The notes beneath the pieces are model-generated. The model saw only the letters and a program-made list of their open reading frames with translations, was not told where the DNA came from and did not search any database. Shown here piece by piece: positions 26,283 through 39,379 of a DNA stretch of 64,000 nt (position 1 is the stretch's first letter; each line of letters opens with the position of its first letter). The stretch covers positions 4,990,501 through 5,054,500 of the forward strand of contig NZ_VFML01000001.1 of NCBI RefSeq assembly GCF_006715045.1. Direction: 5' to 3'. The DNA is from Amycolatopsis cihanbeyliensis (GTDB lineage Bacteria > Actinomycetota > Actinomycetes > Mycobacteriales > Pseudonocardiaceae). The translations under genes were made by a program, and so were the position numbers.

Positions 26283-27101
26283 ATGTCGCGTCGAGCAGGG
26301 GCGCGTGGCTGGGCGCTGCGCTCGTTGGCTGTGCTCGCCCTGAGCGCCGTATGGATCACACCGATGCACGCCGCCGCGGAACCATCGGTGGCCGAGGCCA
26401 GCACGCACTGCCCTGTGCACTACCTCCCACTGGACGAGAGTTCGGGCGACCGTGCCGCCGACGTGACCGGCGGCCGGACCGGGACCCTGCACAACGGGGC
26501 GGAGTTCGTCGAGGGGCGCGTGGGTAACGCGGTCTCCCTCGACGGCGTGGACGACCACGTGTCGACCACCGGTGTCAACCTGCGCACCGATACCAGTTTC
26601 AGCGTTTCGGCCTGGGTCTACCTCGAGGAGAAGCCCGGCCAGCAGACCGCCGTCAGCCTCGACGGTGACCGCACCAGCAAGTTCCGGCTCGGCCAGGTGA
26701 TGGACGGGGAACACCGGCTCGGATCGTGGGTGTTCGAGATGCCCGAGTCGGACACCGATGGTGCTCTGTTTACCACGAAGGCGGTATCGACCTGGGAATC
26801 GGAGACGGATACCTGGGTCCACCTTGTTGGAGTGTATGACGCATCGGCTAACCGGATCTGGCTGTACGTCAACGGGACCCGGGTCGGCGACGGCACGGTG
26901 CGGAACACCTGGAACGCGGACGGTGGCCTGCAGATCGGCCGGGGCAAGGCCAACGGTGCCGCCGAAGAGTTCTGGCCCGGCAAGGTCGACGACGTTCGTC
27001 TGTACGTCAGCAGCTTGTCTGACGAGGATGTTGCGGACCTGTACCGGTCCTACCCGGACTCGGCTGGTCCGGTGAGTGGGTCGATCAGTGCATCCTTTTA
27101 G
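26283..27101 (+). CDS. Secreted single-LamG-domain protein
   Basis: 272 aa. A Sec signal peptide spans residues 1-31 (LRSLAVLALSAVWITPMHA) and is 28/30 identical to that of the next gene. The rest is one LamG/concanavalin-like jelly-roll domain (LPLDESSGDRAADVTGGRTG, AVSLDGVDDHVS, WVHLVGVYDASANRIWLYVN), closely similar to the last LamG domain of the next gene. It therefore looks like a miniature of that 1690-aa protein with the middle removed. ATG at 26283 follows TTAGGGGAG. Probable role: an extracellular carbohydrate- or surface-binding partner of the RHS system, or a duplication by-product. Confidence 0.82.
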   Translation: MSRRAGARGWALRSLAVLALSAVWITPMHAAAEPSVAEASTHCPVHYLPLDESSGDRAADVTGGRTGTLHNGAEFVEGRVGNAVSLDGVDDHVSTTGVNLRTDTSFSVSAWVYLEEKPGQQTAVSLDGDRTSKFRLGQVMDGEHRLGSWVFEMPESDTDGALFTTKAVSTWESETDTWVHLVGVYDASANRIWLYVNGTRVGDGTVRNTWNADGGLQIGRGKANGAAEEFWPGKVDDVRLYVSSLSDEDVADLYRSYPDSAGPVSGSISASF

Positions 27102-27267: not shown

Positions 27268-30200
27268 ATGTTGCGCCGAGCAGGGGCGCGTGGCTGGATG
27301 CTGCGCTCGTTGGCTGTGCTCGCCCTGAGCGCCGTATGGATCACGCCGATGCATGCCGTACCGGCCGCCGCGGCGCCGCCCGCGGCCGAGCCGGTGACCC
27401 GAGCAGCGGACGAGGCAACCGCGCTCACCGCGGCACGGGAGCAGGGCGCCCGGGTCGAGGTGACCAGCTTGACCTCGGAGACAGCCAAGGTCTTCGCCAA
27501 TCCGGAGGGCAACCTCACCCTGGAACAGTCGGTGATGCCGGAACGGGTACGCAAGGACGGCGAATGGGTAGACGTAGACACTACCTTGGAGCGGCGAGCC
27601 GACGGCACGATCGCCGCGAAGGCATCCCCGGTCGGGACCTCGTTCTCCGCGGGTGGCGATGCGGCCCTGGCCAGGATCGTCAATGACGGCAAGGAACTCG
27701 CACTGAACTGGCCGGAGAAACTGCCCGAGCCGGTGCTCTCCGGGGATTCGGCCACGTATCCGGAAGTCATGCCCGGGGTGGACCTGCGGGTGCGTGCCAG
27801 CCTACGCGGCTTCGCGCACGAGCTGGTAGTGAAGACCCCTGAGGCGGCAGCCAACCCGGAGCTCGAGGAGATCGACTTCAACCTGCGTACCGAAGGCGTG
27901 CGGGTCAGTGCGGACGAGGCGGGCAACATCAAGGCGGTGGACGAGGCCGGAACCACGGTATTCCACGCCCCTGCGCCCCGCATGTGGGATTCCTCAGGGA
28001 AGGCGGCCGTAGCCTCGCCGCGCTCCGCGGCCGAGCCTCGACCCAAGGACGCCGCCGTTGGCGTGCGCGTCGACGCGGACGGCGTATCCCTCTTGCCGGA
28101 CAAGGAACTACTCACTGACCGGACAGCGAAGTTCCCGCTGGTGATCGATCCGGACTTCAGCGCCGTTGCTCCGGAAAAGTCGGCCTGGACCCTGGTTCGC
28201 CGCTCGCATCCGAACAACTCGCACTGGAATCTTTCCCCGCGCGACGACGACGAACGCTACAAGGGAGTCGCCAGAGTCGGGCACGCCCCCGGTTGGCCGA
28301 GCGAGTACCTTGACCGTTCCGTTTTCCGGTTCCCCACCGGGGTGCTGCGAGGTTCGCGAATCCAGCGGGCGGAGTTCCAGATCTATCAGGTGTGGAAGCA
28401 CTCGCACACCTGCGATCCGAACCAGGTCCCGCCGATGTACCTGCACCTGACCAGCCCGATCGGGACGGGAACCACCTGGAACAACCAGCCGGAGTGGTAC
28501 CGGCACCTTTCCTCCGCCCGGTCCACGGCGAAGGCTGGGCAGTCCTGCGGCCCCACCTGGATCGGCATGGACGCCAAGAGCGCGGTCCAGCAGGGCGCGG
28601 ACGCCGGCTGGGGTGATATCCACCTCGGTATCAAAGCCTCTTACGGCGACGAAGGAAACAACAACGACGCGGCCTGGAAACGGTTCCACGTCAAGCAGGA
28701 GAACGGTGTACGCTTCTTCCCCAAGCTGTCGGTGACCTTCAACCGCAAACCGAACGCGCCGCACTGGGTGGGAACCAACCCGACGCTGCCCGATCCCTGC
28801 CGGTGGTGCGAGGGCAAGCGCTACTACGGCGGGGACCAGATCACCCTGCAGGGCAGGCTGAGTGACCCGGATGGCGGCCAGCTGCGGGCCAACTGGACGG
28901 CGACGATGCAACCGTCCGGCCAGACCGTCCATCGAGAACAGTGGCTCGCTTCCGGATCGACCTACGGGACATCACTCGATGTGAGCGACAAGCACGGCCA
29001 GACAGTCAACTGGTCGGTGCACGGGCATGATGGAGCCCTCGGCGGCCCGAGTGCCGATGGACCGTCCTTCACCGTGGACAGACAGGCTCCTGACGCTCAG
29101 CCGGGCGTCGCCGGACGCCTCTACCAGGAAGACAACGCCTGGCACGGCGGCGTTGGCGTTCGGGATCGGTTCACCTTCACGTCTAACGGTGTCGGCGATG
29201 TCGACCACTACCTGTACGGGTTCACCGATCCACCGACCACCAGGGTGGACGCCGACGCCCTTGGCGGGGACGCGAAAGTGTGGATCGAGCCGCCGAGGGA
29301 CGGACCGGTCGATCTGTATGTGCAGAGCGTGGACCGTGCTGGTCTACGCAGTCCGATGCGCGTATATCACTTCTACGTCCGAGCCGGCAACGGTCCGGCT
29401 TCGCACTGGTCGCTGGACGGAGATGCCACCGACGACGCCTTCCTCGGTGACCGCGACGGCACGGTGAACGGAGGCGCGACCTGGGGCCCGGGCGCGGTCG
29501 GCGCCGGTATCCAACTGGACGGCATTGACGACGACATCACCGCCCCGAACACGCTGCGTACGAACGCGAGCTTCTCGGCCTCGGCCTGGATGCGGGCCGA
29601 CGACCCAGGAAACCGGATTCGCACGGCAGTCTCGCAGGACGGCGAGTACACGAGTGGGTTCGTGCTTCAGACCATGGAAGACGGCCGATGGCGGTTCATG
29701 CTTCCTGGCGGCGACGTACCACCGGACGCTGCGGCGAAGGTTCTGGGCGATCATCCGATGTCGACCAAGCCGATCCAGCCAGGCAAGTGGACGCACGTGA
29801 CCGGCGTGTATGACGCTGAGGAGAAAGCCGCCTCCCTCTATGTCAACGGTGTCTTGGTGGACTCGGTTCCATACTACGTCGATTGGAGTTCCGTTGGCCC
29901 CGTACGGATAGGGCGCGGGATCTGGCAAGGTCGAATGGTCGATCCCTGGTCGGGCGCGATTGACGAGGTCGCACTCTACGATCGGGCACTCTCGGCGACA
30001 GACGTGCAAGCACTGGTTTCTCAAGACAACGTCCAGATAGGACATTGGAAGTTCGATGAGAACAAGGACGGCGGCGCGGTCGGTAGCACGACCGCGCGAA
30101 ACGCGGTCGCTGGCGGCGATGCCGGAATTCTCACCAACGGCGCCACGTTCGTGCCGGAAGGTGCGGTAAGTGGATCGGTTCAGCTCGACGGCGTGGATGA

Positions 30201-32340
30201 CCATGTCCTCACGAACGGTCCAGCGGTACGCACGGACCGCAGCTTCACGGTCGCCGGCTGGGTGAAGCCCGACCGGCTGGCGCCCGAGAACGGTTCGCTG
30301 ACCATGGTCAGCCAGGACGGAACCGTGAACAGCGGCTTTATGCTTCAGCAACGCGCCGGTGGCTGGATGTTCCTGGTAATGGACCCGACCCAGGAGGATG
30401 GTGTGGTCGGAACCGCCTGGTCGGGTGAAGGTACCGCGTCAATTGGCCAGTGGACGCACGTAGCCGGGGTGTTCGACGCGACAACCAACGAGGTTGCGGT
30501 GTATGTCAATGGAGAACTGGCCGACACCGGCACGCTCGACGGAAGCTGGAACGCCACCGGTCCGCTGGTGATCGGTCGTGGCATGTGGCGTGGCAACAAG
30601 GTCGACTATTGGCCGGGTGCGCTCGATGAGATTCGGGTGTACAGCCGGACTCTGGACGAAGCCGAGGTCAAGGGCATCGTCAAGCAGGACGACGTGGTAG
30701 CCGCTTCATGGAAGTTGGACGGCAACGCCCGGAACTCGGCGGATGCGGACAAGCACGGCACGTTGCACAACTATCCGTCCTGGACCGAAGGTCAAACTGA
30801 CAATCCTGATGCCGGTGATCTCGCAGCCGAGTTGGACGGCGAGAGCGAGTACGTCAGCGCACCGTCCGCGGTAGACACCTCGCAAAGCTTCTCCGTGTCG
30901 GCCTGGGTCAAGCTCGACCAAGCGTCAACCGGATGGGAAACGGTGGTCAGCCAGAATGGCCAGCACACAGCGGCATTAAACCTGGCGCACAATGCCGGTA
31001 CGTTCGCTGTCGCCATGCACGGACCGGATACGGTCTATCCGAGCGCGATTACTCGGGTGCACTCGGAGCAGCGGGCGCAGGCCGGGGTGTGGACGCATCT
31101 GGCCGCGGTGTATGACCAGCCCGCAGGTGAGCTTCGACTCTACGTCAACGGTGTCTTGGCCGGGAGCGGCAAGTTCACCGAAGCATGGAAGGCGGAGGGT
31201 GAGCTGAACATCGGCCGTGCCCGATGGCGGGACCAGTGGATCAATCACCTACCGGGTGCGATCGACGATGTGAAGCTGTACAGTCGCGCGCTGTTCGCGG
31301 ATGAGGTCCGGCTACAGGCTGGCCGCGATCTGAGCCTGATACACAACCACAAGCTGGACGAAAGCTCCGGCGACCAGGCAGCCGATGCGATCGGCGGTCG
31401 GACCGGAACCCTGCACAACGGAGCCGAGTTCACCGAGGGGCGCACGGGCAACGCCGTTTCCCTGGACGGTGTAGATGACCACGTATCGACTACCGGGGTA
31501 GACCTACGCACCGATACCAGTTTCACGGTGTCCACCTGGGTCTACCTCGACGAACGTGGTGGGCAGCCAACCGCTGTCAGCTTGGACGGCGACCGTACCA
31601 GCAAGTTCCGACTGGGCCATGTACAGGACGCGGAGACCCGGCTCGGCCTCTGGGCATTCGAGATGCCCGAGTCAGATTCAGACGGTGCACAAGTTACGGA
31701 TGCGGCACTGTCGATTCGCGAATCGGAATTAAACACGTGGGTCCATCTCGTTGGCATCTACGATGCTCCGGCAAATAAAATCTGGCTGTATGTCAACAGT
31801 AACCGGATCGACGATGGAACGGTGCAGAACACTTGGAACGCGGAAGGAAGCCTGCAAATTGGTCGAGGTAAAGCCGATGGTGCGGCCGACGGCTTCTGGC
31901 CAGGAAAGGTAGATGACGTCCGACTGTATACCGGTGGCCTTTCCGGTGACCGGATATCTTCTTTGTATCAATCCTATCCCGATGAGTCTGATCCGATGGT
32001 GCCGACTTTCGCCGAAGGAAGCCTGCTGCGCGCGCCAGATGCGCCGAACCATTCCGACGCCGTCACTATTCGCCTGGTCGCCGGTGGTGCCCGTATCGGT
32101 ATCGCCACTGAAGAAGAGTTGCAAGGCACTGGGCACGGTCACCACGAGGTCATGGAACTGCCGTGGGCCGCGTTGAAGCTGCTGCCCACCCAGATAGCTA
32201 CCGGAACCCTGGTCCAGGCACCAAACTCCGAGCAAGTATGGCGCATCGAAGGGGAAGGCCGGGTAGCGACGAGCGGAACCGGCGACGTGCAGTTGATTCC
32301 CCTGCGCGTGCTCAACTCCTATCCGGAAATAAGTGACTAA
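27268..32340 (+). CDS. Large secreted LamG-repeat / DNRLRE-type protein, RHS companion
   Basis: 1690 aa. Signal peptide 1-35; residues ~60-300 resemble the N-terminal region of actinobacterial DNRLRE/LamG RHS-companion proteins (VDVDTTLERRADGTI, VMPGVDLRVRASLRGFAHEL); a DNRLRE-like carbohydrate-binding jelly roll at ~300-490 (YLDRSVFRFPTGVLRGSRIQ); Ig-like segments to ~700; then four LamG domains starting near residues 712, 924, 1146 and 1360, each with a conserved LDG(V/I)DD and WTH(V/L) pattern; and a unique C-terminal tail. ATG at 27268 follows TTAGGGGAG. The RHS gene begins 42 bp downstream in the same orientation. The inferred role is extracellular surface binding that accompanies RHS toxin delivery. 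Confidence 0.85.
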   Translation: MLRRAGARGWMLRSLAVLALSAVWITPMHAVPAAAAPPAAEPVTRAADEATALTAAREQGARVEVTSLTSETAKVFANPEGNLTLEQSVMPERVRKDGEWVDVDTTLERRADGTIAAKASPVGTSFSAGGDAALARIVNDGKELALNWPEKLPEPVLSGDSATYPEVMPGVDLRVRASLRGFAHELVVKTPEAAANPELEEIDFNLRTEGVRVSADEAGNIKAVDEAGTTVFHAPAPRMWDSSGKAAVASPRSAAEPRPKDAAVGVRVDADGVSLLPDKELLTDRTAKFPLVIDPDFSAVAPEKSAWTLVRRSHPNNSHWNLSPRDDDERYKGVARVGHAPGWPSEYLDRSVFRFPTGVLRGSRIQRAEFQIYQVWKHSHTCDPNQVPPMYLHLTSPIGTGTTWNNQPEWYRHLSSARSTAKAGQSCGPTWIGMDAKSAVQQGADAGWGDIHLGIKASYGDEGNNNDAAWKRFHVKQENGVRFFPKLSVTFNRKPNAPHWVGTNPTLPDPCRWCEGKRYYGGDQITLQGRLSDPDGGQLRANWTATMQPSGQTVHREQWLASGSTYGTSLDVSDKHGQTVNWSVHGHDGALGGPSADGPSFTVDRQAPDAQPGVAGRLYQEDNAWHGGVGVRDRFTFTSNGVGDVDHYLYGFTDPPTTRVDADALGGDAKVWIEPPRDGPVDLYVQSVDRAGLRSPMRVYHFYVRAGNGPASHWSLDGDATDDAFLGDRDGTVNGGATWGPGAVGAGIQLDGIDDDITAPNTLRTNASFSASAWMRADDPGNRIRTAVSQDGEYTSGFVLQTMEDGRWRFMLPGGDVPPDAAAKVLGDHPMSTKPIQPGKWTHVTGVYDAEEKAASLYVNGVLVDSVPYYVDWSSVGPVRIGRGIWQGRMVDPWSGAIDEVALYDRALSATDVQALVSQDNVQIGHWKFDENKDGGAVGSTTARNAVAGGDAGILTNGATFVPEGAVSGSVQLDGVDDHVLTNGPAVRTDRSFTVAGWVKPDRLAPENGSLTMVSQDGTVNSGFMLQQRAGGWMFLVMDPTQEDGVVGTAWSGEGTASIGQWTHVAGVFDATTNEVAVYVNGELADTGTLDGSWNATGPLVIGRGMWRGNKVDYWPGALDEIRVYSRTLDEAEVKGIVKQDDVVAASWKLDGNARNSADADKHGTLHNYPSWTEGQTDNPDAGDLAAELDGESEYVSAPSAVDTSQSFSVSAWVKLDQASTGWETVVSQNGQHTAALNLAHNAGTFAVAMHGPDTVYPSAITRVHSEQRAQAGVWTHLAAVYDQPAGELRLYVNGVLAGSGKFTEAWKAEGELNIGRARWRDQWINHLPGAIDDVKLYSRALFADEVRLQAGRDLSLIHNHKLDESSGDQAADAIGGRTGTLHNGAEFTEGRTGNAVSLDGVDDHVSTTGVDLRTDTSFTVSTWVYLDERGGQPTAVSLDGDRTSKFRLGHVQDAETRLGLWAFEMPESDSDGAQVTDAALSIRESELNTWVHLVGIYDAPANKIWLYVNSNRIDDGTVQNTWNAEGSLQIGRGKADGAADGFWPGKVDDVRLYTGGLSGDRISSLYQSYPDESDPMVPTFAEGSLLRAPDAPNHSDAVTIRLVAGGARIGIATEEELQGTGHGHHEVMELPWAALKLLPTQIATGTLVQAPNSEQVWRIEGEGRVATSGTGDVQLIPLRVLNSYPEISD

Positions 32341-32382
32341 TCGTTGCCGTTTCCTTTGACTGATCCCGATCCGGGAGGAATC

Positions 32383-35300
32383 GTGAGACCACTGCGGAGA
32401 GACAACCGTCGCAGGGCCGTCGGTCGTAAACGGGCCGTGGCGTTGGCGGCGGTCATCGCGGCGAACGTGCTCGTCGCGGTCAGCGCCCCGTCCGTGGCGA
32501 CCGCCGCCGGTGGCCCGTCGGTGCCGTTGCCGGATACGGATTCGGTTCCGGTGTCCGAGCAGTCGATGGAGCCACGGCTGCCGGACGAGGTGAGTCGGGA
32601 CGCGCTACATGGTGACCAACCTGCGGGCGATCCCGGTGGTGGTAACGCGGGAAGCGGCACGCACACGGCGACCTCGTTGTCGCCATCCGCTACCTGGGAC
32701 GTTTCGGCGCAGACTGGTAGTTTTGCCTGGTCCTACCCGCTCCGGGTGCCGCCCGCACCGGGTGAGCTGACCCCGGAACTGGCGCTGTCCTACTCCTCGT
32801 CGAAGGTAGACGGGCTCACCAGCGCCAGCAACACGCAGGCGTCCTGGGTCGGCGACGGGTGGAGCTTCTGGCCGGGCTTCATCGAACGCAGCTACGGCAG
32901 TTGCGCCGAGGATCTGCCAGGCGAACCCAAGGACAACCCGTTCGACCTGTGCTGGCGCAGCGACAACGCCATGCTGTCCTTCGGCGGGTCCGGTTCCAGG
33001 TTAATCCGGGATGAGGGCACCGGGGTATGGCGGCCGGAGCAGGACGACGGCTCCCGGATCGAGCGACTGACCGGAGCCGGGAACGGGGACAACAATGGGG
33101 AGTACTGGAAGGTCACTGATACCGAGGGAACCCAGTACTTCTATGGCTCGAAATCCGCAGCAAAGTCGACCTGGACAGTACCGGTCTATGGTGACGACGC
33201 GGGCGAGCCTTGCCACGCAGGTGGTTTCGACGACTCGTTCTGCACCCAGGCATACCGCTGGAACCTGGACAAGGTGATCGACGCCAACGGCAATATGATC
33301 ACATACACATATCAGACGGAGAGCAACAAGTACGGGCGCAACAAGAACGACACGCCGACTTCCTATGTTCGGGGTGGCTGGCTGGAACGGATCGAGTACG
33401 GACTCCGTGCGGGAGAGCCCACTCCGGCCTCCGGCAGGGTGTTGCTCAGCACGGCCGATCGATGTGTGCCTGGTTCGACCTGTACGCCGGACAAGGAGGA
33501 GAACTGGCCGGAAGTGCCGTGGCGGTTGAACTGCGACGGCGACACCTGCGAGGACTACCAGCAGTCCCCGAGCTTCTGGTCCACTAAACGGCTGAGCAAG
33601 ATCACCACCCAGGTTCGGCAGGATGATGGCTACCGTGACGTGGATTCGTGGACGCTGCGGCACGAGTACCCGGATCCCGGCGACGGGGAGAAACCCGCGT
33701 TGTGGCTTGCGGGCGTGACGCACACCGGGCACGTCGGAGGTACCGCGGAGTTGCCCGAGGTGACCTTCGAAGGAGTTAAGAAACCGAACCGGGTGAAGGC
33801 GATCGATGGGCACGCGGCGTTGATCCGTTATCGGATGAACGCGATCGTCTCCGAGTCCGGTGGGGTCACTTCGATCAAGTATGCCGAACCGGATTGTTCG
33901 GCTGATTCGTTGCCGGACAAGCCGGAGACGAACAGCAAGCGTTGCTTCCCGGTCACCTGGTCCGCGCCGTACTCGGCCGAACGGACCGACTACTTCCACA
34001 AGTATGTGGTGGAGTCGGTGACCCAGCTCGACCGGCTCGGCAGCTCGGTCGGTGATGTGACCAGCTACGAGTACCTGGATGGTGCCGCGTGGCACTACGG
34101 CCGTTCCGAGCTGACCGAGGACGAGGACAAGACGTGGAACGAGTTCCGCGGCTTCGGCCGGGTCCGGATTCGGAAAGGTAGCGGCCACGACGGGCCGGTC
34201 ACGCTCACCGAGAACCGGTACTTCCGTGGATTGAACGGGGACAAGTTGCCGGACGGCACACGATCGGTCTCGGTCACCGATTCCGAAGGCGGTAGCTATC
34301 CGGACCACGACTGGCTGTCCGGCGTCCAGCTGGAGACCATCACCTACAACGGCGAAGGCGGACCGGTGGTGGGGAAGACCATCACCGAACCCAGCTGGCA
34401 GGGCCCAACGGCCACCCGAGGTGATCTAAAAGCATACCTGGTCAACACCGGGGTAGAGCGGACCATTACCCCACTCGAGACCGGTGGTAACCGGATCACC
34501 CGCATCGAGACGGAGTATGACGACAAAGGCATGCCGACAGAGGTCGACGACCTGGGCGAGGTCGGAAACCCGGAAGACGATCTCTGCACCCGGACCAGTT
34601 ACGCACGCAACACCGACCGATGGTTGCTGTCCTTCCCGAAGCAGACCGAGACCGTGTCGGCACACTGCGGGGCCACACCCAGCTACCCGGATGACGCGGT
34701 GTCGGGAACCCGAAATTCCTACGACGGCCAGACGTTCGGTGCCGCGCCGACCAAGGGAAACGTTACCCGCACAGAGGAGCTGAGCGAACGCACCGCACAA
34801 GAGGCCACCTACGTCACCACGGAGACCGTGAGTTACGACGGGTACGGCCGGCCGGCCGAGGTCAAGGACGCGTTGAACCGGAGCACGACGACGGAGTACA
34901 CCTCGACTGCCGGTGGCCCGGTGACCAAGACCGTCGTAACCAATGCCAAGGGACATGCGACGACAACCACGCTCGACCCCGCTTGGGGGAAGCCGGTGAA
35001 GGTCGTGGACGCCAACGGCAACACCACTGAGGTCACCTATGACGCCTTGGGACGCAAAACCGACGTATGGCTGCCGATCCGGCTCAGGTCAAAACACGAC
35101 CGGGGTAGTTACGAGTATTCCTACCGGATCTCGCGCGACGAGCCGTCGGTGGTGACCACCACGAAGGTTGGTCCCAACGGTTTCTACACCACCAGCAAGC
35201 AACTCTACGATGGCCTGCTGCGGCTCCGGCAGACGCAAACGCCCGCGCCAGGTGGCGGCCGGTTGCTGACCGACACTCGCTATGACTCGGCGGGCCGGAC

Positions 35301-38300
35301 TTACTACAGCACCAAGCCGTATTTCAACGACGCCGCGTTGGACGACAAGCTGTGGTCGGCCACTGATGCCGAGATCCCTGGCTTGACTGTGCAGGAGTTC
35401 GACGGTGCGGGCCGGGTGGTCGCCAAGGTGTTCAAGGGCGGCGGCATCGAGAAGTGGCGCACCGAGGTCCACTACGGCGGAGACCGGGTACATATCGACC
35501 CGCCGCAGGGTGGGACCGCGACCACGATTGTCAACGACGCGCGCGGTCGCACCATCGAGTTGCGGCAGTACCACTCCGGTAGCCCGGAGGGCGACTACGA
35601 CAGCACCGCGTACACCCATACGCCGGCAGGGGAGTTGGCGAGCCTCACCGACCCCGGCGGGAACGTGTGGCGGTACGAGTACGACCTGCGTGGACGCAAG
35701 ACCACGATCGAGGACCCCGACAAGGGGGTCACGACCAAGTCCTATGACGTTGCCGGTCAGGTAACCACCAGTACCGACGCGCGCGATACGACCTTGGCCT
35801 ACGCCTACGACGTCCTGGGACGTAAGACCGCGTTGCACGAGGGTTCGCTGGATGGCCCAAAACGCGCCGAATGGGTGTACGACACTGCTAGTTGGGGCAA
35901 AGGGAAGTTGGCCAAGTCGATCCGCTGGATCAACGGGGAGCCCTACACGAAGAAGGTGTCGGTCTACGACGGACTATTCCGGCCGCTGAAAACACAGGTG
36001 GTGATCCCGGAATCCGAGGAAGAGCTTGCCGGTACGTATACGTCCTATGCTGCGTATCACCAGGACGGCAGCCTGCGTGGCATCGACTATGCGGCTGCAG
36101 GCGACATGCCTACGGAATCGTACAGCACGAGCTATGACGATCTTGGTAATCCCCTGAGCACCAGTGGCGGGCTGAATGGCCAAGGTATAACCCCTTACGT
36201 CACCGGCACCGAGTACACGCGGTATGGCGAGGTGCAGCGGGTGCAGCTCGGTGCGGGTAGTAAACGTACTTGGCTGTCGCGTTACTACGAGGAGCACACC
36301 CGTCGGCTGGCGCGGACGATCGTGGATGCCGAGTTGCCCCAGCCGATGCAGTCGGATGTGAACTACACCTACGATCCGGCGGGCAACATCACCTCGATCG
36401 CGGACACCCCGCGCGAGCAGCAGGCCGACGTTCAGTGCTTCCGGTACGACTACCTGCGACGGATGACCGAGGCATGGACCCCGAACAGCGACTGCGCAGC
36501 TGATCCGTCGACAGGCTCGCTGGGTGGCCCGGCTCCGTACTGGAAGTCGTTCAGCTATGACAAAGTCGGCAACCGGGTGTCGGCCACCGACCACTCCGCG
36601 GACGGCGACACCGTCCAGAGCTACACCTACCCGGATGGTGGGCACGAGCTGAATTCGGTGGCCACTGAGGGGCCAGGCGGTACGAGCCTGCAGGAATTCG
36701 GCTACGACGAAACCGGGAACACCGTTCGTCGCCAGGTCGCGGGTAACGAGCAGGATCTCGAGTGGGACGCCGAGGGGAACCTGGTCAAGACCACTGAGGG
36801 AGAGAAGGTCACCGAGTTCGCCTATGACGCGAACGGTGAGCGGCTGTTGCGGCGAACCCCGGACGGCGCGACGTTGTACCTGCCGGGGCAGGAGCTGAGC
36901 TGGGATTCGGCGAGTGGTGAGACGACGACCACGAGGTACTACCAGCACGGGTCCTCGACGGTGGCGATGCGTACGGATGGTGCCGGGGTTACCTGGCTGC
37001 TGAGTGACCATCAGGGCACGGCTCGGTTCGCTGTGGACGCGCAGGCCATGCAGGTGACTCAGCGTCGGCAGTTGCCGTTCGGCGGGCGTCGTGGTGCCGA
37101 GGTGGACTTCCCTGGGGAGAAGGGTTTCGTCGGTGGCACGATCGACGAGTCGGCGGGGCTCGTGACGCTGGGCGCCAGGCAGTATGACCCGGCGCTGGGC
37201 CGGTTCCTGTCGGTGGACCCGCTGATGGATCCGAGCGATCCGCAGCAGATGCACGGCTACACCTATTCCAGTAACAACCCGATCACCTTCTCCGACCCGA
37301 CGGGGTTGGCTCCGCGGTGTGACTGGCACAGTTGCACTGGTCACCGGGATCCCTATCCTGAGGCGAACGGTCGTAACGAGCGGCCCGATATCAAGCCGAG
37401 GATCGGCGGCGAAAGTAGTCCGCGTAGAAAGTCTCGCCCGGCTGCTGCGAGTAAACCTTCCAGGAAATCGTCGTGTACCTCGGTCAAATACTGTGGTGCT
37501 AAGCCGAGTGTGCCCACCGTCAGCATGACGCCGGCGGAGGTTGCACACGCCATACTTGACCTTGCCGGTCTTATCCCAGGCCTGGGGGAAGCCGCGGATG
37601 GCGTCAACTGCATCTGGTACGGGGCTGAGGGTGATGCCCTCAATTCGAGCCTCTCGTGTGCCGCGATGGTCCCGATTGGTGGTATGGCTGCCACCGGCGG
37701 AAAGCTCATCGGCAAGAGCGTTGATGCGGGGCGCGGTGGGCGTCGGGCAGGGTGCCCAGGAAACAGCTTTGTTTCGGGCACGATGGTGTTGCTGGCCGAT
37801 GGCACGCGGAAGCCGATCGAGGATCTTGAGCTTGGCGACGTGGTGTGGGCGTCTGATCCGGAGACGGGTGAGTCCGGTCCACGTCGGGTCGTGGCCACGC
37901 ATGTCGGCCGGGATCGGAAGGACCTGGTCGAGATCACGGTCGACGTCGACCGTGGCGACAAGACCGGGACGATAGTCGCCACGAAGGATCACCCGTTCTG
38001 GGTCGACGAGCACGGCGGTCTCATCGCGGTATCCAGTGTCGATGCCGTCACGTCGGGCACAAACGATGACTGGGTTACTGCGGCTGAGCTCGACCCGGGC
38101 GACGAGCTCCTCACTCGCGATGGCGAGCAGGTGCGGGTCGCGTCCGTCCGCCGTCACACGGCGACACGCACGGTCCACAACCTCACCATCGAAGGCATCC
38201 ACACCTACCATGTGCTGGCGGGCGGGCCTTCATTGCTCGTTCACAACAGCAATTGCCCTAACGGGAAACTGTCGGATCCTCTGCCCAGGGGGATGAACAA

Positions 38301-38550
38301 CAAAATTGCTTCGGCCTATGATGATGTGAAGGCAGGGCGCCTAACCTCGCATGACACGTATGCGGGGCGCGAGCATCGGTGGTGGGCAGGAGCTAAAGAG
38401 TATCGCGTACCTGGTCGGCCGGAGACCGAAAGAATTTTGGAAAAGGAGTTGGATAACGGTGTCAAAGTTTACGGTTGGACGTCTACGCACTACCAGAAGA
38501 TTCAACGCTTCGGTGCACCTCACTTCCCTGATTCGGGATGGGGCAAGTAA
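32383..38550 (+). CDS. Secreted RHS polymorphic toxin with HINT domain and barnase-like C-terminus
   Basis: 2055 aa, intact. Sec signal peptide 1-45; SpvB-like N-terminal region; RHS/YD repeats from about residue 815 (YDALGRKTDVW, YDLRGRKTTIEDPDKG); RHS core near 1525-1640 (LLSDHQGTARFAVDA, GARQYDPALGRFLSVDP); HINT (intein-like) autoprotease ~1790-1954 starting CPGNSFVSGTMVLLADG, with TKDHPFW, ending LLVHN before SNCPN; then a ~100-aa toxin. The toxin aligns with barnase/RNase Sa: R1996 (YAGRE, like R59), E2006 (AKEYRV, like E73), R2017 (ERIL, like R87) and H2036 (STHYQ, like H102). A guanyl-preferring RNase released by HINT self-cleavage is inferred. GTG at 32383 has GGGAGGAA upstream. The next gene encodes a barstar-like protein. 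The toxin-coding end is AT-richer than the rest. Confidence 0.88.
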   Translation: MRPLRRDNRRRAVGRKRAVALAAVIAANVLVAVSAPSVATAAGGPSVPLPDTDSVPVSEQSMEPRLPDEVSRDALHGDQPAGDPGGGNAGSGTHTATSLSPSATWDVSAQTGSFAWSYPLRVPPAPGELTPELALSYSSSKVDGLTSASNTQASWVGDGWSFWPGFIERSYGSCAEDLPGEPKDNPFDLCWRSDNAMLSFGGSGSRLIRDEGTGVWRPEQDDGSRIERLTGAGNGDNNGEYWKVTDTEGTQYFYGSKSAAKSTWTVPVYGDDAGEPCHAGGFDDSFCTQAYRWNLDKVIDANGNMITYTYQTESNKYGRNKNDTPTSYVRGGWLERIEYGLRAGEPTPASGRVLLSTADRCVPGSTCTPDKEENWPEVPWRLNCDGDTCEDYQQSPSFWSTKRLSKITTQVRQDDGYRDVDSWTLRHEYPDPGDGEKPALWLAGVTHTGHVGGTAELPEVTFEGVKKPNRVKAIDGHAALIRYRMNAIVSESGGVTSIKYAEPDCSADSLPDKPETNSKRCFPVTWSAPYSAERTDYFHKYVVESVTQLDRLGSSVGDVTSYEYLDGAAWHYGRSELTEDEDKTWNEFRGFGRVRIRKGSGHDGPVTLTENRYFRGLNGDKLPDGTRSVSVTDSEGGSYPDHDWLSGVQLETITYNGEGGPVVGKTITEPSWQGPTATRGDLKAYLVNTGVERTITPLETGGNRITRIETEYDDKGMPTEVDDLGEVGNPEDDLCTRTSYARNTDRWLLSFPKQTETVSAHCGATPSYPDDAVSGTRNSYDGQTFGAAPTKGNVTRTEELSERTAQEATYVTTETVSYDGYGRPAEVKDALNRSTTTEYTSTAGGPVTKTVVTNAKGHATTTTLDPAWGKPVKVVDANGNTTEVTYDALGRKTDVWLPIRLRSKHDRGSYEYSYRISRDEPSVVTTTKVGPNGFYTTSKQLYDGLLRLRQTQTPAPGGGRLLTDTRYDSAGRTYYSTKPYFNDAALDDKLWSATDAEIPGLTVQEFDGAGRVVAKVFKGGGIEKWRTEVHYGGDRVHIDPPQGGTATTIVNDARGRTIELRQYHSGSPEGDYDSTAYTHTPAGELASLTDPGGNVWRYEYDLRGRKTTIEDPDKGVTTKSYDVAGQVTTSTDARDTTLAYAYDVLGRKTALHEGSLDGPKRAEWVYDTASWGKGKLAKSIRWINGEPYTKKVSVYDGLFRPLKTQVVIPESEEELAGTYTSYAAYHQDGSLRGIDYAAAGDMPTESYSTSYDDLGNPLSTSGGLNGQGITPYVTGTEYTRYGEVQRVQLGAGSKRTWLSRYYEEHTRRLARTIVDAELPQPMQSDVNYTYDPAGNITSIADTPREQQADVQCFRYDYLRRMTEAWTPNSDCAADPSTGSLGGPAPYWKSFSYDKVGNRVSATDHSADGDTVQSYTYPDGGHELNSVATEGPGGTSLQEFGYDETGNTVRRQVAGNEQDLEWDAEGNLVKTTEGEKVTEFAYDANGERLLRRTPDGATLYLPGQELSWDSASGETTTTRYYQHGSSTVAMRTDGAGVTWLLSDHQGTARFAVDAQAMQVTQRRQLPFGGRRGAEVDFPGEKGFVGGTIDESAGLVTLGARQYDPALGRFLSVDPLMDPSDPQQMHGYTYSSNNPITFSDPTGLAPRCDWHSCTGHRDPYPEANGRNERPDIKPRIGGESSPRRKSRPAAASKPSRKSSCTSVKYCGAKPSVPTVSMTPAEVAHAILDLAGLIPGLGEAADGVNCIWYGAEGDALNSSLSCAAMVPIGGMAATGGKLIGKSVDAGRGGRRAGCPGNSFVSGTMVLLADGTRKPIEDLELGDVVWASDPETGESGPRRVVATHVGRDRKDLVEITVDVDRGDKTGTIVATKDHPFWVDEHGGLIAVSSVDAVTSGTNDDWVTAAELDPGDELLTRDGEQVRVASVRRHTATRTVHNLTIEGIHTYHVLAGGPSLLVHNSNCPNGKLSDPLPRGMNNKIASAYDDVKAGRLTSHDTYAGREHRWWAGAKEYRVPGRPETERILEKELDNGVKVYGWTSTHYQKIQRFGAPHFPDSGWGK

Positions 38551-38614
38551 TCGGAATTCGCCAACTGGTGTAGAAGTTTTCGTTGCTGCTTAAATTGTAG
38601 CTGAGGATGAAAAC

Positions 38615-39379
38615 ATGTGTGGTAAGTTGTCTGCTGTGATTGAGGCAGATTTTCCGTTATACATGGTGGTCGACGAGGATTCTGGAGATGTGCTTCTCGC
38701 GGCCGAAGAAGTAGATGGGTTCTTTGTCAGTCAGGAACAAGGGTCGCCGGAAGTGGTCTTTCGGGGTGTGCATAGCCTCGACAAAGGCAGGCGAAGGACT
38801 GAGGATGCGAACTTGCAGATCTTGAGTCGTGAGAGTGGTAAGATCGGCGAGTACTTCATTGGTCGAGTGGCGCTCGGGGACACAGTTGTAAAATCCTCAG
38901 ACGGTAAGATTTCAAGCGTTTCATGTTATGTATTTGATAATCGTTGTGAGTATCCCGAGGCTGCAAGAATTTGGCGAAGATGGGCGTTGGGTCCTGCTGT
39001 AGAAGAGGGCGAATGGATTCAATTGTCGACAGGCTGTCTGGATGCATGGTTGCACGTAGTTCAAAATTCTTGGTTTGTCTTGAATAGTGATGCTGCCTGC
39101 CGTGGATCTGATAAGGTTGCGGATTTAGATGGCACGTATATAACTACAAGTCAGAAATTTTTCTGCGCATTGGGTGAGGCGGTTAATGGTCCAGGTGGAT
39201 ACTTTGGATCAAATTTGGATGCACTCGCCGACTGCATTCATTCAAGCCTTGATCGCGGTGTTTCATTGAGAATTATTTGGCGAAATTATAAGCTGTCCCG
39301 CGAGTCGCTTGATCACTACTTTTTAGATTCGGTTACTGCGATCATGCGTGAATTTGGTATAGATTTTACTGCTTGCTGA
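38615..39379 (+). CDS. Barstar-domain immunity protein with N-terminal extension
   Basis: 254 aa. The C-terminal ~85 residues align with barstar: DLDGTYITTSQKFFCALGEA, then YFGSNLDALADCI with N200, D202 and D206 matching barstar N33, D35 and D39 (the residues that plug the barnase active site; Trp38 is Ala), then LRIIWRNYKLSRESL. The first ~165 residues match no family I recognise. ATG at 38615 follows GAGGA, 64 bp after the RHS stop. The GC content is clearly lower than in flanking genes, as usual for recently acquired toxin-immunity tails. Inferred function: neutralises the barnase-like domain of the upstream RHS protein in the cytoplasm. Confidence 0.85.
   Translation: MCGKLSAVIEADFPLYMVVDEDSGDVLLAAEEVDGFFVSQEQGSPEVVFRGVHSLDKGRRRTEDANLQILSRESGKIGEYFIGRVALGDTVVKSSDGKISSVSCYVFDNRCEYPEAARIWRRWALGPAVEEGEWIQLSTGCLDAWLHVVQNSWFVLNSDAACRGSDKVADLDGTYITTSQKFFCALGEAVNGPGGYFGSNLDALADCIHSSLDRGVSLRIIWRNYKLSRESLDHYFLDSVTAIMREFGIDFTAC

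Follow-up and report, generated by a model that had tools for sequence, protein, structure and literature searches.

The window analyzed here, a stretch of 64,000 nucleotides (nt) from Amycolatopsis cihanbeyliensis (contig NZ_VFML01000001.1, positions 4,990,501 to 5,054,500), encodes on its forward strand an RHS polymorphic toxin followed by an immunity gene of the barstar type. The toxin gene (32383..38550) is read from GTG 32383 as a protein of 2055 amino acids (aa), and a GGGAGGA resembling a ribosome-binding site can be read at 32373..32379, its last base three bases 5' of that start. Pfam and NCBIfam matches to SpvB, five RHS-repeat stretches, the RHS-associated core and PT-HINT give a layout of signal-like N terminus, SpvB-like region, RHS repeats, RHS-associated core, PT-HINT and RNase-like tip. 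The PT-HINT pretoxin domain (37783..38250, residues 1801–1956; PF07591, E = 1.4e-14) belongs to its family both by hidden Markov model (HMM) match and by motif, an LLVHN-S near its end placing a C-terminal His-Asn ahead of the tip. The tip, or tail (38251..38547, residues 1957–2055), is barnase/RNase Sa-like and carries R1996, E2006, R2017 and H2036. The immunity gene (38615..39379, 254 aa, two domains; PF01337, E = 3.6e-12) starts 64 nt 3' of the RHS stop, with a GAGGA preceding its ATG. A first-pass annotation had given the same coordinates, frames and residue numbers, with an intein-like HINT domain before the tail and a barstar core at the end of the next gene, and in all of these it was correct. 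We read the whole as a polymorphic toxin system in which a barnase-like RNase tip, borne by an RHS-HINT protein, is paired with a cognate barstar-type antidote, and we give this reading a probability of about 0.87; it rests on sequence kinship and predicted fold, on the conserved catalytic set, and on the pairing and co-divergence of tip and antidote and the composition of their cassette.

E2006, R2017 and H2036 are invariant in all 41 aligned tails, and the position of R1996 is Arg in 35 of the 41, so that the Arg/Glu/Arg/His set already noticed in the first pass is more than chance. Alignment with PF00545 by hhalign pairs R1996, E2006 and H2036, and sets R2017 against the first of two adjacent Args. 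The short Glu-to-Arg spacing remarked on earlier is also real: of 32 tail rows, 22 have a spacing of 11 and 10 a spacing of 12, whereas in 22/22 PF00545 rows the two adjacent Args lie 14 and 15 from the Glu. The profile check proposed for the tail failed, with no PF00545 match to the window tail at the gathering score, none in 32 tail members at E values up to 10, and a genome search that found three places, none of them at the RHS tail; the fold check gave a predicted microbial RNase fold, as in the barnase/guanyl-RNase superfamily. Sequence kinship and this model place the tip, in diverged form, within the barnase/RNase Sa (microbial guanyl-RNase, BECR) superfamily, and the barnase–barstar lineage gains a toxin tip that escapes the Pfam and NCBIfam copies searched. 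A very diverged tip at another locus (L125, E = 1.5e-8) has a spacing of about 9 and FDHDYG replacing THY, with a two-domain antidote still next to it.

Failure of the tail to match PF00545 could also mean that the tip comes from another BECR-fold RNase clade (a colicin E5/D-, EndoU-, RelE- or Ntox-like tRNase), its likeness to barnase being one of fold and a few residues, barstar having been co-opted against another type of toxin. Substrate is not fixed by fold alone, and Imm-Barstar also stands beside Ntox21, a different BECR toxin, in the part of PMC3482391 drawn on here. Against this, the 50 VIA structural matches listed for the tip, a comparison confined to chains proposed by Foldseek, are to RNase Sa, barnase and binase only, with no colicin, RelE or EndoU among them, and the in-order alignment of the named tip residues with PF00545 members scores far above shuffles. 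We therefore regard an origin in another clade as unlikely.

The assignment of the antidote's barstar domain (39116..39352, residues 168–246 as matched by Pfam) is secure. It scores 46.5 bits against a cut-off of 23.4 for PF01337, has the predicted fold of a barstar, and carries YFGSNLDALADC, which includes D202 and D206, the counterparts of the barstar DxxxD; an alignment of 70 relatives shows D202 and D206 conserved in at least 90%, and C207, G195 and G198 in 100%. Ahead of it lies an N-terminal domain (38615..39094, residues 1–160), delimited by alignment and an AF2 model, in which six strands and then helices are predicted. None of 25 members has a Pfam match in this region of about 160 residues, and W120, W123, E133, W134, W145-LHVVQ and W153 are invariant in 25 aligned rows. 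A search with the N-terminal region alone reached 59 proteins; since 56 of these list PF01337 and the other three are short or altered near the barstar start, the two domains co-occur among the relatives reached. The oversized immunity protein is thus no peculiarity of the window, being common to close relatives.

The fetch of antidote relatives kept the best 80 of 107 loci (L001–L080), of which 48 were scored as two-domain antidotes by our own profile limits. A tail lies at most 600 nt upstream in 36 of the 48, and the identical 36 loci were recovered with a tail model built solely from the collected tail proteins. Twelve two-domain loci are without a tail (L005, L017, L019, L023–L026, L028, L030, L031, L047 and L050): the antidote of L005 sits behind a different large protein and one intervening gene, and no toxin-like gene was recognized upstream of L019, L023, L024 and L026, as is expected of leftover immunity genes. 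The 27 loci L054–L080 were matched in the barstar part, the match of L064 starting at residue 110, and 26 of them (all except L056) encode a PF00545-type RNase upstream. In 25 of these 26, the barstar match begins anywhere from 9 nt ahead of the end of the RNase frame to 82 nt beyond it, too close for an extra domain to fit, and in L064 the RNase frame overlaps the match by 198 nt. No PF00545-type RNase was found upstream in L001–L053. Within this one fetch there is, then, a clean rule: two-domain barstars accompany the RHS-borne tip, and barstar-only genes accompany PF00545-type RNases. In the window's genus, the tail is present in 5/80 genomes (the window's own counted), with a two-domain antidote adjoining in 5/5 and one of the five pairs very diverged. 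Two plasmid records hold the tail, both with the antidote adjoining; plasmid records with an antidote match number 52, in 2 of which the tail is also present.

Two of the 36 upstream tails are broken, with an intact antidote behind each: only the last third of the tip is left in L020 (7150–7959), and in L045 (2542–3537) it is split over two frames. Such remnants lend something to the idea that the window tip is a formerly barnase-like toxin, now inactive and retained for adhesion or for closing the RHS, the antidote being a relic. The window tip, however, has all four residues intact in an open frame, both window genes retain a plausible start, and the pairing persists over large sequence distances; a relic is very improbable here.

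Co-divergence points the same way as pairing, and the two together support the toxin–immunity interpretation made in the first pass. It was measured in 25 of 35 tail–antidote pairs, those in which the HINT region, taken as the 230 residues preceding the tail, was usable. Tail and antidote distances correlate with r = 0.86, a value reached in 0/5000 permutations, as against r = 0.08 for tail and HINT (979/5000) and r = 0.14 for antidote and HINT (314/5000), or 0.10 (767/5000) and 0.16 (278/5000) with HINT trimmed to 165 residues; shared host ancestry stays in these correlations, the HINT comparison being a partial control. Both antidote domains track the tail, the N-terminal one (r = 0.86) as closely as the barstar one (r = 0.84), as might be seen if inhibition lay with the N-terminal domain and the barstar part served another partner, for example the host's own RNase Sa-type enzyme. 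Another barstar gene of the same genome does have a separate PF00545 RNase next to it, but D202 and D206, at which barstar makes contact, are conserved, and the tail is itself barnase-like, which is the usual target of barstar domains. We consider this division of labor quite unlikely.

We suggest, tentatively and as the less probable view, that these pairs form a separate barnase–barstar class whose inhibitor depends on an additional domain with a fold unrecognized here; the inhibitor might be two-handed, its N-terminal domain contacting the tip or some other target. The extra domain poses a concrete question, namely whether a delivered RNase tip needs a different inhibitor from a secreted RNase. 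Distant two-domain barstars (about 28–33% identity) also occur on linear Streptomyces/Embleya plasmids (L129, L130, L131 and L133); the four regions read show no annotated RHS toxin in the neighborhood, and the L129 and L131 proteins extend about 110 residues further on the N-terminal side. If the class is real, such barstars on linear Streptomyces plasmids, with no toxin in the record, would be free-standing antidotes or regulators acting against cellular RNases or those of rivals.

Tip and antidote move together from carrier to carrier as a single cassette. GC content falls from 63.8% in the RHS body and 64.6% in HINT to 54.2% in the tip and 47.1% in the antidote, and GC at third codon positions (GC3) from 0.79 and 0.78 to 0.58 and 0.44. 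PF07591 is not listed in 5 of the 41 tail proteins (P0031–P0033, P0040 and P0043), one of which is named a putative T7SS-secreted (type VII secretion system) protein. These observations, with co-divergence that leaves HINT out, indicate that the cassette passes from one type of carrier to another and that HINT is dispensable. A modular RHS carrier, a C-terminal tip and a downstream immunity gene, with varying carriers and a constant cassette, make up a polymorphic toxin system. The actinobacterial RHS carrier, first thought unusual, turned out to be common, many from Streptomyces and other actinobacteria being listed.

Judged by eye, the N terminus of the RHS protein looks like a Sec-type signal, through which the protein would be exported with the tip carried by the RHS shell. 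By analogy with its family, cleavage by the PT-HINT domain probably follows the Asn of VHN, freeing a tip of about 99 residues that would cleave RNA in the cytoplasm of a competitor. In barnase and RNase Sa, Glu is the general base, His the general acid, and Args act on phosphate and guanine. In the tip, these two catalytic roles probably fall by analogy to E2006 and H2036, in that order, and phosphate or base binding to R2017, which has R2012 and R1996 close by; the part of R1996 is less sure. The DxxxD helix of the antidote would enter the active-site pocket, D202 and D206 of the C-terminal barstar domain plugging the tip and so shielding the producer and its kin.

Barnase and RNase Sa are free RNases of about 100 aa, and the window RNase differs from them in being an RHS-HINT tip with a Glu-to-Arg spacing of 11–12 rather than 14–15. 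Its inhibitor has two domains, in contrast to the barstar domain alone of the barnase–barstar and RNase Sa–barstar pairs (PF00545/PF01337), with which the window pair shares the Glu/Arg/His set and a further Arg, the predicted fold and a DxxxD inhibitor. In the part of PMC3482391 used, Imm-Barstar accompanies barnase-like tips of polymorphic toxins, RHS carriers and Actinobacteria included, and the window, with a barnase-fold tip on an RHS carrier and a barstar immunity gene, resembles these Tox-Barnase/Imm-Barstar pairs. By eye, the Tox-Barnase signature given there ('H, H, [ST], FP, [STD]') fits H1990, H2036, the invariant F2048-P2049 and D2050 of the tail, and the Imm-Barstar signature 'DxxxD' fits D202/D206; the Tox-Barnase row, unlike the window, gives a PVC-metallopeptidase and no HINT. 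Because of the stated association and the fit of the signature, the window pair is a further member of this known type. Barnase-tip/barstar pairs on RHS carriers are thus already known in outline, and it is the extra antidote domain that sets the window pair apart; the barstar passages of PMC3482391 and the related literature listings contain no mention of a two-domain barstar that we met.

Upstream in the window, and sharing the frame of the RHS gene, lies a gene for a LamG-repeat protein (27268..32340, forward strand; TAA at 32338–32340), 1690 aa long, with a signal-like N terminus and a start of its own and four Laminin_G_3 stretches (Pfam, E = 5.8e-113). In three relatives (P0023, P0038 and P0044), LamG, RHS domains and tail are fused as a single chain, and the 1690-aa protein is a probable carrier partner of the RHS protein. 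A short open reading frame with a single LamG domain (26283–27101), directly ahead of it, may belong to the same carrier as a separate or broken piece.

Elsewhere in the genome, a PF00545 RNase match directly adjoins another barstar match at C2:581448-582076, and a 239-aa frame at C1:2373103-2373666 (L093) has tandem PF00545 domains, the second much weaker; similar neighboring PF00545 pairs occur in many relatives. A second RHS-HINT protein on C2 has a similar carrier (48–50% identity to that of the window), with a different tip, Ntox24 (PF15529, E = 8.5e-7), and a different downstream gene. There (C2:990410-1000244, L082–L084), the Ntox24-tipped protein and its downstream gene are followed by a loose HINT fragment, an arrangement that has the look of a displaced tip cassette.
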